Shown: piece after piece, positions 30,108 through 33,840 of the stretch
Layout of the letters: every line of letters begins with the position of its first letter
Numbering within the stretch: position 1 is the first letter of the stretch
Assembly (NCBI RefSeq): GCF_026004075.1
Contig: NZ_BPIK01000001.1
Location: forward strand, 846,041 to 910,040
From: Meiothermus sp.
Lineage (GTDB): Bacteria > Deinococcota > Deinococci > Deinococcales > Thermaceae
Direction of reading: 5' to 3'
DNA: 64,000 bases
The notes under the pieces: model-generated
The model's input: only the letters and a program-made list of their open reading frames with translations
Database searches by the model: none
What the model was told of the DNA's origin: nothing
Position numbers and translations under genes: made by a program

Positions 30108-30614
30108 ATGAAAAGCCGCGCCGGATGGGTCTGGGTGGGGGCCCTGCTTGCAGGGCTATGGTGGCTTACTGCTATGCTTTATCCAAGATTGCCCGATCGC
30201 ATTCCCGGGCATTTTGGCCCGCGCGGAGATGTGACTCGCTGGGCCGACCGGGTGGAATTCTGGTGGATTCCCGTGGTAGCTACGGGTCTTGTGCTGCTGG
30301 TGTTTGCCCTCACGCGGCTGGCCTTTCGCTATCCAGAAATTTTGAACCTGCCGCAAAAAGAGCGGTTTTTGTCACTCCCAGAGTACCTGCGACATAAGTT
30401 AGTGCGTGTGCTGGACTTCTATCTGGCTTTTTTGACGGGCTACTTATGCGTCTTGTTCGGCTACCTCCAGTGGAACACTTATTTAGTTGCGCTGGGAGCA
30501 GCTAAAGGCCTGGGCTGGGAGATATGGCTATTTTTTGCCATAGTTCCTTTGCTGATAGGTTGGATGATCTGGGACACCAACCGCAGGCTGCGGCTAGTTC
30601 AGCGCACCTTATAG
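30108..30614 (+). CDS. DUF1648 membrane protein
   Basis: 168 residues with four hydrophobic segments and the DUF1648 signature MLYPRLPDRIPGHFGPRGDVTRWADR after the first helix. This domain occurs in SdpI-type immunity proteins and in membrane proteins of unknown role. ATG at 30108 fits the family start, and TAACAT lies seven bases before it. An in-frame ATG upstream would begin inside the preceding gene. Overlaps the convergent tyrA by 16 bases. Confidence 0.8.
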   Translation: MKSRAGWVWVGALLAGLWWLTAMLYPRLPDRIPGHFGPRGDVTRWADRVEFWWIPVVATGLVLLVFALTRLAFRYPEILNLPQKERFLSLPEYLRHKLVRVLDFYLAFLTGYLCVLFGYLQWNTYLVALGAAKGLGWEIWLFFAIVPLLIGWMIWDTNRRLRLVQRTL

Positions 30615-31681
30615 CCGATGCCCTGCAAAATCTGGCGGGCCTGCTCGCGTTCCTCGGGGGTGGCAAAGCCTATGCGGATGGCCCCCCCTTCGTCGCGGAT
30701 GGCCAGCACCTCGAAGTTTTTGATGTTGACCCCGGCGTTGCCCAGCGCGGTGGAGACGGTGGCAATTTGACCCGGCTTATCAGGAACCTGCACCACCAGT
30801 TCGTTCATCACCGGCAGCAGGCTGCGCTTGACGATGGGCAGCGCGTCGCGGGTGCGCTTGGCCTCCAGGGCCGCCTCGAGCAACGCTTCGGGTTGCTCGA
30901 GCAGGTTTTCCAGCTCCAGCATCACCGCGCGCAGGTCTTCGATGGCCGCGCGCAGGGCCTCTTTGTTGGCCACCACCATGTCCCGGCTCATGCGGGGCGA
31001 GCCCGAGGCTACGCGGGTCAGGTCGCGGAAGCCCCCCGCAGCCAGGAACATCAGCAGATCCTGGTGGGGATCCTGGGCCACCAGCCGGTTCAGTCCCACT
31101 GCCAGCAGGTAGGGCAGGTGCGAGATGCGGGCCACCAGCCGGTCGTGCAGCTCGGGGGCCATCTCCAGGGGATAGGCCCCCAGGTTCTGCACCAGGCTGC
31201 GCACGGCCTCGAGGGCACTCGGGACAGTGCCGGTGGTTGGGGTAATGACCCAGACGGCATTCTGCAGCAAACCGGCGTGGGCGGCCTCCACGCCGGCTTT
31301 TTCGCTACCGGCCATGGGGTGGGAGCCCACAAAGTTGGGCAGAACCCCCGTCAGGGCCTCCACCACCGGCTGCTTGACGCTGCCCACATCGAACCAAACG
31401 GTGTGTGGGCTAGCAAACTGTGCCAGCTTCCGGCCCTCGCTGACCAGCACCCCCACCGGGGCGGCCAGCACCCCGAGCTCGAGGTCGCCCACCCAACTGC
31501 CCAGCGAGGCGTGTACCCTGTCCACCACCTGAAGGGCCAGGGCATCCTCGAGGGCTCCAGGGTCGGGGTCGTAGGCGTGAATTTCCTCGGCTAAAAAGCG
31601 TTCACGTAGCCCCAGGGCCACACTGCCCCCCAGGAGACCAATGCCGAAAATGCCGACTTTGCCAAACAGAGGCTTCATCAT
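30599..31681 (-). CDS. tyrA: Prephenate dehydrogenase with C-terminal ACT domain
   Basis: Oxidative decarboxylation of prephenate to 4-hydroxyphenylpyruvate in tyrosine synthesis. 360 residues: NAD-binding GIFGIGLLGGSVALGL, VGSHPMAGSEKAGVEAA and a C-terminal ACT domain from about residue 290 (LVVQVPDKPGQIATVSTALGNAGVNIKNFEV) that usually binds the feedback inhibitor tyrosine. It lies downstream of the DAHP synthase gene in the same direction with 102 bases between, so it may be co-transcribed and share its attenuation control. Two adjacent ATG codons are possible starts. Confidence 0.93.
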   Translation of the reverse strand: MMKPLFGKVGIFGIGLLGGSVALGLRERFLAEEIHAYDPDPGALEDALALQVVDRVHASLGSWVGDLELGVLAAPVGVLVSEGRKLAQFASPHTVWFDVGSVKQPVVEALTGVLPNFVGSHPMAGSEKAGVEAAHAGLLQNAVWVITPTTGTVPSALEAVRSLVQNLGAYPLEMAPELHDRLVARISHLPYLLAVGLNRLVAQDPHQDLLMFLAAGGFRDLTRVASGSPRMSRDMVVANKEALRAAIEDLRAVMLELENLLEQPEALLEAALEAKRTRDALPIVKRSLLPVMNELVVQVPDKPGQIATVSTALGNAGVNIKNFEVLAIRDEGGAIRIGFATPEEREQARQILQGIGYKVR

Positions 31682-31783: not shown

Positions 31784-32821
31784 CTAGGCGGGCTCGAGGG
31801 CGCGGGTTAGCCGGCGCCCCAGGGCGGGCAAAAGGGCCTTTATCCGGCTCATCATATCGGCAAACTGGGCTTCGTTGAGCTGCTGGGCCGCATCGGACTG
31901 GGCCTTTTCGGGGTCGGGGTGGGTTTCCACAATCAGCCCGTCAGCGCCGGCGGCCAGACCCGCCAGCGCCAGGGCGGTCACCCAGTCGCGCTTACCGGCG
32001 GCGTGCGAGGGGTCAATCCAGACCGGCAGGTGGGTCAGGCTTTTCAGTACCGGCACCGCCGAGACATCCAGGGTGAAGCGGGTAGACTTCTCGAAGGTGC
32101 GTATGCCGCGCTCCACCAGAATGACCCGCATGTTGCCCTGGGCCAGTACGTACTCGGCCGACATCAGAAACTCCTCCAGGGTCATGCTCATGCCCCGCTT
32201 CAGCAAAACCGCCCGCCCGGACTGCCCGGCGGCCTGCAAAAGGGCGAAGTTCTGCGCGTTGCGCGCACCAATTTGCAGCACATCGGCGTAGGTGGCTACC
32301 AGATCGACCTGCTCGGGTGAAACCACCTCGGTCACCACGGGAAGGCCGGTCTGCCGCCGGGCCTCGGCCAGAATTTCCAGTCCCTCCTGGCCCATACCCT
32401 GGAAACTGTAGGGCGAGGTGCGGGGTTTGAAGGCCCCACCCCGAAGCATCTGCGCCCCGTGCTTCTTTACATAGTGGGCGGCGGTCAGGGTTTGCTCGAG
32501 GCTCTCTACCCCACAAGGCCCCGCCGCAATCATTACCTCACCGCCACCGGTGGCCCCGGTATCCCAGCGCAGTACGGTGGGTTTGGGGGAGATTTCCAGC
32601 GAGGCCAGCTTGTAGGGTTTGGAGATGGGGATAACGTCCTGCACGGCAGATAGTGCGCGGAAATGCTCAATCAGCTCTGGGGTTGGCCCCTTGCCAATGG
32701 CCCCGATCAAGGTGGTGTGCTCCCCCTCGGAAACGTGGGGCCGGTAGCCAACCCGGCGCACCTCGGCCACCACCGACTCCACTTCTTGAGGCCCTGAACC
32801 ATGTTTCATGATAATTAGCAT
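31784..32821 (-). CDS. aroF: DAHP synthase, type I-beta (3-deoxy-7-phosphoheptulonate synthase)
   Basis: First committed step of aromatic amino-acid synthesis, from PEP and erythrose 4-phosphate. 345 residues from ATG at 32821, preceded by GGGAGG. Residues 1-75 form the ferredoxin-like regulatory domain (MLIIMKHGSGPQEVESVVAEVRRVG) seen in Thermotoga-type enzymes, followed by the barrel with MIAAGPCGVES, LRGGAFKPRTSPYSFQGMG, IGARNAQNF, LLKRGM and WIDPSHAAGKR. A leader peptide and terminator lie upstream, so expression is probably attenuation-controlled. The symbol aroF follows the usual naming of this type. Confidence 0.94.
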   Translation of the reverse strand: MLIIMKHGSGPQEVESVVAEVRRVGYRPHVSEGEHTTLIGAIGKGPTPELIEHFRALSAVQDVIPISKPYKLASLEISPKPTVLRWDTGATGGGEVMIAAGPCGVESLEQTLTAAHYVKKHGAQMLRGGAFKPRTSPYSFQGMGQEGLEILAEARRQTGLPVVTEVVSPEQVDLVATYADVLQIGARNAQNFALLQAAGQSGRAVLLKRGMSMTLEEFLMSAEYVLAQGNMRVILVERGIRTFEKSTRFTLDVSAVPVLKSLTHLPVWIDPSHAAGKRDWVTALALAGLAAGADGLIVETHPDPEKAQSDAAQQLNEAQFADMMSRIKALLPALGRRLTRALEPA

Positions 32822-32841
32822 TGCCTGACCTCCCTGCACAC

Positions 32842-32875
32842 AAAAAACTTCCGGGGATTTGGAACTCCCCGGAAG
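32842..32875 (-). terminator. Intrinsic terminator in the DAHP synthase leader (attenuator)
   Basis: On the minus strand a perfect 10-base stem CTTCCGGGGA/TCCCCGGAAG with an 8-base loop is followed directly by six T. It stands between the aromatic leader peptide (stop at 32894) and the DAHP synthase start (32821), so it cannot serve as the terminator of a complete gene. The 5' arm contains CGGGGA (32871-32866), complementary to UCCCCG inside the leader coding region (32913-32908). That pairing could form an antiterminator. Confidence 0.88.
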
Positions 32876-32893
32876 CATTGGTGCGATAAACGC

Positions 32894-32980
32894 CTACACA
32901 GGCCTCACGGGGACAACAGGCCAATAAAAATACCCAAAAAAGTAGGTATTTTGGCTTGTGACACCCCTCGAGGTCTGCAT
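32894..32980 (-). CDS. Aromatic-rich leader peptide of the DAHP synthase gene
   Basis: A 28-codon frame, ATG at 32980 to TAG at 32894. After a neutral beginning, codons 13-20 read Y-F-F-G-Y-F-Y-W (seven aromatic residues in eight), then a valine/proline tail. It is followed 18 bases later by an intrinsic terminator, and then by the DAHP synthase gene. This is the classical layout of ribosome-mediated attenuation, here sensing charged tRNA-Tyr, tRNA-Phe and perhaps tRNA-Trp. A near-leaderless promoter precedes it (TATGCT nine bases before ATG). Too short to be found by length-based gene callers. Confidence 0.85.
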   Translation of the reverse strand: MQTSRGVTSQNTYFFGYFYWPVVPVRPV

Positions 32981-32989
32981 ATAAAGGTG

Positions 32990-33019
32990 AGCATATTGGC
33001 CCGGCCTTGGGTTTGTCAA
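32990..33019 (-). promoter_or_regulatory. Promoter of the DAHP synthase leader
   Basis: Consensus -35 TTGACA (33019-33014), 18-base spacer, -10 TATGCT (32995-32990) on the minus strand. The leader peptide ATG follows nine bases later. The -35 box overlaps the stop codon of the upstream thioesterase gene. This is one of the best promoter matches in the window. Confidence 0.75.
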
Positions 33020-33423
33020 CTCGTGCGAATGGGGGTGATGGCTAAGGTGCAGCGGGAGATGCAGACCAGGCGCCCTTGCTCATCGCGAATCTCGATACCC
33101 CAGACTGCGCTGGTGCGGCCAGTATGGATAGGTGTACCGGTGGCCGTGACCTTGCCCGACTGCATGGAACGCAAGTGGTTGGCATTGATCTCCATCCCAA
33201 AGCTGGTATGGCCCTCGGGCGCGGCCAGATACGCGCCGATACTGGCTACGGTTTCGGCCAGCGCCACCGAGGCCCCGCCGTGCAGGTAGCCAAAGGGCTG
33301 GTGCAACCTGGGGGTTACTTCCATCTCGGCCACCACTTTTTGGGGGGTGGCCTCCAGGATGCGGATGCCCAGGGTCTTGACCAGTGAGTCGCGCTCGAGC
33401 CGGGTAGGGTCGATCTTGCTCAT
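33016..33423 (-). CDS. PaaI-type hotdog thioesterase
   Basis: Acyl-CoA thioesterase of the hotdog fold, 135 residues. FGYLHGGASVALAETVASIGAYL is the PaaI signature: H-G-G at the active site and the helix with a conserved acidic residue. Substrate not determinable, with aryl- or 1,4-dihydroxy-2-naphthoyl-CoA as common family substrates. TAGGCT lies seven bases before the ATG. Its 3' end carries the -35 box of the next transcription unit. Confidence 0.85.
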   Translation of the reverse strand: MSKIDPTRLERDSLVKTLGIRILEATPQKVVAEMEVTPRLHQPFGYLHGGASVALAETVASIGAYLAAPEGHTSFGMEINANHLRSMQSGKVTATGTPIHTGRTSAVWGIEIRDEQGRLVCISRCTLAITPIRTS

Positions 33424-33484: not shown

Positions 33485-33840
33485 GGGGGCGTTCCGGTTT
33501 CGACAGGGGCCCTTGAAGGCAGTACGGCGTGTCGAGGTAGCCCATGGCCTCGTAAAAATGGGCAAAGCCATAACTGGCAACGCTCGTAGCAACAGCTACG
33601 CTCTCGCTGCTTAAGTCAGCGACGTTCTTCAGAAGCCCAGCCGATGGCGTACTGAACGAACGACCTAAAGTCGGCTAGCTCGAGGCAAGGCTCCGTAGCC
33701 AAGAGCGAACTTCTCGCGGAGCTTGGTCTGGGCCCGCTGTTGGTGGCGCAAGCCTAGGCGACAAGCAAACACCAACTACACACGTAGATGTCTGCTGGAT
33801 GGGTCTCTGGACGCGAGTTCGACTCTCGCCGCCTCCACCA
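33485..33840 (+). ncRNA. ssrA: tmRNA (transfer-messenger RNA)
   Basis: Rescues stalled ribosomes by trans-translation with SmpB. The 5' end GGGGGCGTTCCGGTTTCGACAGGGG and the 3' end GGACGCGAGTTCGACTCTCGCCGCCTCCACCA are the canonical tRNA-like halves, with an encoded CCA at 33838-33840. The tag frame ends ...NSYALAA followed by TAA (33612-33614). Read from GGC at 33561 the tag would be GKAITGNARSNSYALAA, longer than most. The exact resume codon is not certain. About 356 bases, one piece. Followed by an intrinsic terminator. Confidence 0.97.

Follow-up and report, generated by a model that had tools for sequence, protein, structure and literature searches.

The DAHP synthase genes of Escherichia coli are controlled by repressors and are not known to be attenuated. 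The attenuator leaders of Corynebacterium glutamicum are reportedly leaderless transcripts, a description attributed to Neshat et al. 2014. In C. glutamicum, the leader peptide aroR, with Phe-Tyr-Phe, precedes the DAHP synthase gene aroF and is reported to respond to limitation of Phe, not of Tyr (PMC11802643, PMC4046766). At ilvBNC of the same species, the transcript starts 1 nt from the leader ATG without a Shine-Dalgarno sequence; an anti-antiterminator (H1) shields the start region, and H2 and H3 are the antiterminator and the terminator (PMC11857589). Leaderless mRNAs are common in Deinococcus (PMC9031893). No report of an attenuator in Thermus, Deinococcus or Deinococcota was found in the open-licence literature. 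The preliminary description of the present locus likewise knew of no described case in this phylum; the principle is already known from aroR before a DAHP synthase gene.

We analysed a stretch of 64,000 nt (the window) from a Meiothermus close to M. taiwanensis, whose aroF is 98% identical to the window copy. The genus containing the window genome (g1) has among its named members M. taiwanensis, M. hypogaeus, M. luteus, M. rufus and M. granaticius. Between a 4HBT thioesterase gene and aroF, a minus-strand cassette of promoter, short ORF, terminator and Shine-Dalgarno sequence was found (Table 1). The promoter, the 28-codon frame with YFFGYFYW at codons 13-20, the stop codon, the terminator, the ribosome-binding site and aroF itself, all named in the preliminary description, were recovered at these minus-strand positions. 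Taking the sequence comparisons and RNA modelling together, we consider it very probable that the aroF-tyrA unit is under ribosome-mediated transcription attenuation by charged tRNA-Phe and tRNA-Tyr, with charged tRNA-Trp in addition in Meiothermus.

Table 1. Features of the aroF leader cassette and adjoining genes, in window positions
Feature	Position	Strand	Remarks
4HBT thioesterase gene	33016-33423	minus	upstream neighbour
-35 element TTGACA	33014..33019	minus	overlaps thioesterase stop codon; TTGACA/G kept in 45/45 orthologues
-10 element TATGCT	32990..32995	minus	TANNNT in all orthologues
Leader peptide ORF, 28 codons + TAG	32894..32980	minus	MQTSRGVTSQNTYFFGYFYWPVVPVRPV; gaps inside the ORF are multiples of 3, unlike those outside
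Control codons 13-20	32921..32944	minus	Tyr Phe Phe Gly Tyr Phe Tyr Trp
Region 1	32964..32979	minus	UGCAGACCUCGAGGGG; partner of region 2 and stop-codon region; anti-antiterminator, sequesters start region
Region 2	32902..32913	minus	UCCCCGUGAGGC; partner of region 1 or, as antiterminator, of region 3
Region 3, terminator 5' arm	32866..32876	minus	GCUUCCGGGGA
Region 4, terminator 3' arm	32842..32857	minus	UCCCCGGAAGU, with six-U run
aroF Shine-Dalgarno AGGGAGG	32829..32835	minus	outside terminator hairpin
aroF	31784..32821	minus	ATG at 32821; type I-beta DAHP synthase with N-terminal ferredoxin-like regulatory domain; Pfam PF00793, PF18152
tyrA	30599..31681	minus	next after aroF; prephenate dehydrogenase with ACT domain

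The best solved relatives of the window aroF product are 1rzm, 3pg9, 1vr6 and the chimera 4grs. On the minus strand, no terminator-like site was found in the 102-nt gap between aroF and tyrA, and there is a weak promoter-like match at the tyrA start; co-transcription of the two genes is likely from this arrangement. The gene order, aroF followed by tyrA, fits the proposed attenuator in function.

The promoter has an 18-nt spacer and 10 of 12 consensus matches, and the leader ATG lies 9 nt past the -10 element. The transcript start is predicted at about 32983, 2-4 nt before this ATG. We then compared 50 Thermaceae genomes, 45 of which have this aroF, the other five having only an AroQ-fused DAHP synthase. 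The full cassette, comprising the promoter, near-leaderless ATG, aromatic ORF, stop codon and hairpin in one order, was present at all 45 aroF orthologues in Meiothermus, Calidithermus and Thermus, a count that covers related genomes and does not represent 45 independent observations. An alignment of this region across Meiothermus and Thermus had been proposed in the preliminary description, and it bears out the retention of both the aromatic ORF and the hairpin. The genera differ in the gene that lies upstream, and the cassette nevertheless stays with aroF. The distance from the -10 element to the leader ATG was 8-11 nt in all 45 orthologues, which implies a 5' leader of about 0-4 nt and leaves no room for a Shine-Dalgarno sequence. 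The leader stop codon and the hairpin were separated by 14-21 nt in the same set (17 nt in the window).

Across Thermaceae, the core of the leader peptide is G-Y-F-Y-W or G-F-Y-Y. All 17 Meiothermus/Calidithermus leaders carry G-Y-F-Y and 15 of them G-Y-F-Y-W, while G-F-Y is found in 28/28 leaders of the Thermus group, a typical one being MRTLGRYFGFYYPAGGALRSA. Scanning Thermaceae with the core sequence gave no consistent second copy of the leader, the scan pattern being one that misses the Thermus core. No leader was found at the paralogous AroQ-DAHP synthase fusion in those Thermaceae copies with a locatable start. In family f3, a near-leaderless MQNAYWYTT frame followed by a hairpin with UUUU was seen before an AroQ-DAHP synthase gene (L083). 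Families f4 and f5, which belong to the same order, have a different leader before aroF (L046-L059, L061-L065). Most of these have an ORF with a near-leaderless ATG; they also have a strong internal Shine-Dalgarno sequence and a second in-frame start, after which a conserved Tyr-coding peptide of the (M/V)(E/D)DGY(P)GY type is encoded. In L064, the first ATG is not in frame with the second. No clear intrinsic terminator was recognised in the f4/f5 aroF leaders. In the bacillotan Tepidibacillus decaturensis (L226), an aromatic-rich ORF, MLTNIKKGNRFYNYFFSWGFYFSAGFLGYKK..., and a terminator lie about 80-205 nt before an aroF-like DAHP synthase gene; Bacillota are better known for T-box control.

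Several lines of evidence indicated that the leader ORF is maintained as a coding sequence. The ORF ranges from 21 to 33 codons among the orthologues, and its start and stop codons remain in frame. Within the Meiothermus-group ORF, all alignment gaps are multiples of three, whereas gaps of 1, 2, 4, 5, 19 nt and other lengths occur outside it. The aromatic core is invariant, and the flanking codons drift. When the window ORF was shuffled with its dinucleotides preserved, seven aromatic codons in eight were reached in only 1 of 20000 shuffles. A scan of the genome for two plus three Tyr/Phe codons returned six places including the window leader, fewer than the reversed control, and this scarcity indicates that an aromatic run is not a genome-wide habit.

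Codon choice within the core was also distinctive. The control codons are fixed as TTT and TAT, which are otherwise disfavoured in Thermus. At the conserved Tyr position, 27 of 28 Thermus leaders use TAT, compared with 7 of 156 Tyr codons in the aroF genes, and for Phe the corresponding values for TTT are 28/28 and 46/283. Either slow decoding or a requirement for RNA that is rich in A+U and unstructured could explain this fixation.

We next examined the capacity of the leader RNA to form alternative structures. The window leader folds with z = -6.5 relative to shuffled sequences, and mutually exclusive helices 1:2, 2:3 and 3:4 were found in all groups. Helix 1:2, the anti-antiterminator, links the start-codon region with the stop-codon region. 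The window terminator stem (32876-32847), described previously as ten bases followed by six U, has eleven pairs when the terminal G-U is counted, with an 8-nt loop; the run of six T (32847-32842) was confirmed. The antiterminator segment UCCCCG (32913-32908) had likewise been placed correctly, but its pairing is longer: UCCCCG-u-GAGGC (32913-32902) pairs with the entire terminator 5' arm through 11 pairs and a one-base bulge. In Thermus, region 2 within the ORF is GGGGGCGCCC and region 3 is GGGCGCCCCC. Since region 4 repeats the region 2 sequence, the Thermus 2:3 and 3:4 pairings are perfect helices of equal length.

The sequences of regions 2-4 differ between Thermus and Meiothermus, and their complementarity is kept. 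In the antiterminator, 95-100% of cells were paired, and in the terminator 94-100%; values for slid partners were far lower. Within genera there was little true covariation: Thermus had no pair with changes in both partners, and the Meiothermus antiterminator had two. Within-genus covariation was dropped as a proof of structure, as there was too little variation, and for the same reason we used cross-genus swaps and synonymous shuffles as controls. The mean energies of the region 2:region 3 duplex were -28.3 and -19.8 kcal/mol within genera, compared with -19.2 and -11.4 kcal/mol when partners were swapped. Upon synonymous recoding of 11 leaders, with the peptide kept, the 2:3 complementarity alone arose in 0-107 of 1000 sequences and the 1:2 and 2:3 pairings together in 0-3 of 1000. 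A search of the window against Rfam at the gathering score gave no T-box, amino acid leader or other match except tmRNA, and matches of the leader at E values up to 10 were at chance level. The tmRNA gene (RF00023) lies nearby on the plus strand at 33485-33840.

To relate these helices to the ribosome, nine leaders were folded with the ribosome footprint (A site -16 to +12) forced unpaired, the transcript being truncated where region 3 ends. For the window leader at 60 °C, region 3 paired with the ORF at a probability of 0.24 when no ribosome was present and of 0.76-0.95 when the A site occupied an aromatic codon of the run (codons 13-20). In four Thermus-group leaders, the antiterminator rose from about 0.01-0.4 without a ribosome to about 1.0 with the A site on any core codon except the last Tyr, at which it fell back. 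This dependence on ribosome position was seen in most of the leaders tested. In L005, and by near-identity in L006, almost no antiterminator formed with the ribosome stalled on the core codons; it appeared only at an earlier Phe codon. In L012, the antiterminator was already likely at 60 °C without a ribosome. When the ribosome stood on the stop codon, the truncated RNA gave an ambiguous picture: pairing of region 3 to the ORF persisted at 0.4-0.8, in part through bases 5' of the ribosome, an arrangement that may be sterically impossible. At equilibrium, 3:4 is favoured almost without exception in the full-length RNA, which means that the switch has to be kinetic and decided during RNA synthesis, as in classical attenuators. 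As a model, the ribosome-position calculation supports attenuation without being decisive.

From these results we infer the following scheme for transcript start, ribosome stalling, termination and the response to amino acid supply. RNA polymerase would start 2-4 nt ahead of the leader ATG, and a ribosome would load on the near-leaderless mRNA without a Shine-Dalgarno sequence. When the tRNAs for Phe and Tyr (and, in Meiothermus, Trp) are charged, the ribosome would reach the stop codon with region 2 covered or re-paired, helix 3:4 would form, and transcription would end about 140 nt from its start. Should any of these tRNAs lack its amino acid, the ribosome would halt on the aromatic codons, covering region 1 and freeing region 2; helix 2:3 would then form before region 4 is synthesised, and RNA polymerase would continue into aroF. 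If no ribosome loads, the 1:2 pairing would hold the start region and termination would follow by default. The analogy with the pheA and trp attenuators drawn in the preliminary description is supported, and extended by the 1:2 anti-antiterminator joining the start- and stop-codon regions. The joint control by Phe, Tyr and Trp that it proposed agrees with the leaders of Meiothermus/Calidithermus, but not with those of Thermus, whose core encodes Phe and Tyr, mostly without Trp. Furthermore, as any single shortage would relieve termination, full repression would need all the sensed amino acids, making the control concerted rather than additive.

The output of the leader might differ from intrinsic termination, with RNA polymerase pausing, Rho or aroF translation being regulated by the same leader. 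This is most plausible for the Thermus orthologues, in which the stem is perfect but the U run starts 3-5 nt after it (AAGGYUUUU), a poor match to a canonical terminator, and the aroF Shine-Dalgarno sequence comes next. Because the U run begins beyond the stem, the downstream step in Thermus may differ from that in Meiothermus. The retention of a Tyr-coding leader at aroF in f4 and f5, where no intrinsic terminator is recognisable, points in the same direction. However, the terminator is canonical in the window and throughout Meiothermus/Calidithermus, with 4-7 consecutive U, and the aroF Shine-Dalgarno sequence lies outside the hairpin, so that we regard another output as very unlikely overall. 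The notion that the terminator simply belongs to the thioesterase gene, about 140 nt past whose stop codon it lies, and that the U-rich run became an aromatic ORF by chance, has a negligible probability. A promoter sits between the thioesterase gene and the terminator, the cassette persists next to unrelated upstream genes in Thermus, and the frame-conserved ORF with its fixed aromatic residues contradicts a chance origin across genera.

Attenuation by codon starvation also has to be weighed against an effect of the peptide itself. Gly precedes the aromatic run in 45/45 leaders, and Pro follows it in 16/17 Meiothermus/Calidithermus and 28/28 Thermus leaders, which exceeds what codon counting needs. 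An arrest of the ribosome by the G-aromatic-aromatic-aromatic-P nascent chain, which would sense free Phe/Tyr or slow the ribosome at Pro in place of simple codon starvation, nevertheless appears highly unlikely. The Thermus Gly codon also lies within the 1:2 helix and serves it, leaders differ in how many aromatic codons they have and in what order (YFFGYFYW, FSFGYFYFYW, RYFGFYYP), and the disfavoured TTT and TAT codons suggest control through decoding rate. It is very unlikely that the invariant Gly-aromatic-aromatic-aromatic-Pro acts as a nascent-chain arrest motif through which the peptide itself, in addition to its codons, senses or amplifies the aromatic signal.

Beyond aroF, a scan of the window genome for promoters with a close ATG returned 23 places. 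At three further ones, before trpB, leuC and asd, a short ORF contained a run fitting the next gene, with an intervening terminator: trpB is preceded by KWHHQRWW, leuC by a run of Leu that has CTA codons, and asd by MVWYTTTT. We compared the 30 best loci per gene. Outside Thermus, most of the trpB leaders keep KWHHQ(R/K)W and nearly all of the asd leaders keep VWYTTT; every leuC was preceded by a short near-leaderless ORF in which the number of Leu codons varied. Thermus trpB leaders had at most one or two Trp, and at asd of Thermus no leader of this kind was seen. As a like layout precedes trpB, leuC and asd, the sequences suggest that attenuation may be a general regime in Thermaceae.

The trpB leader MRPRTPRSYKWHHQRWWRRPA, located in the window genome at G000:C1 ~1323400 on the minus strand, is near-leaderless, with three Trp codons and a terminator. 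It is kept in Meiothermus, Calidithermus and g2 (L111-L128, L130, L131), and its Trp codons are mostly lost in Thermus. The asd leaders with MVWYTTTT, which supplies Thr codons (L141-L162), and the Leu-containing leuC leaders, often with CTA codons (L171-L200), are likewise near-leaderless, and a hairpin with a U run was present in most copies read. A palindrome near TTTGGTATACCAAA was observed in several amino acid gene promoters, including those of AroQ-DAHP synthase (L068-L072, L075, L086). At leuC it lies between the -35 and -10 elements (L171, L173, L174, L185, L191), and at asd it overlaps leader codons 2-5 (L141 and others). It is likely a repressor site.

These findings would extend leader-peptide attenuation, in a near-leaderless form, to Deinococcota, family-wide at aroF and again at trpB, leuC and asd. 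Should leaderless attenuators prove general here and in Actinobacteria, ribosome loading at the 5' end may be a recurrent means of timing the ribosome relative to the polymerase where bacteria have many leaderless mRNAs. The Thermus ribosome and RNA polymerase are widely used in structural work, so it could be feasible to reconstitute and image the two coupled on a natural attenuator.

With the pheA (pheL), pheST and trp (trpL; Rfam RF00513) attenuators of E. coli, the Thermaceae leaders share codons for the end products, the 1:2/2:3/3:4 helices and an intrinsic terminator, but the E. coli leaders have a Shine-Dalgarno sequence, for which those of Thermaceae appear to have no room. The first hairpin of C. 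glutamicum ilvBNC shields the start region as in the window leader, and its transcript starts close to the ATG, as is predicted for the window leader; there, however, branched-chain amino acids are sensed, in another phylum. C. glutamicum aroR is alike in placing a Phe-Tyr-Phe leader at a DAHP synthase gene under ribosome-mediated transcription attenuation. The Thermaceae leaders differ from aroR in phylum, in their longer run (up to 7 of 8 codons), in preceding a type I-beta aroF with tyrA and, in Meiothermus, in including Trp. The two are likely convergent. New here are the phylum, the degree to which the leaders are conserved and their occurrence as a set; the principle was already known.
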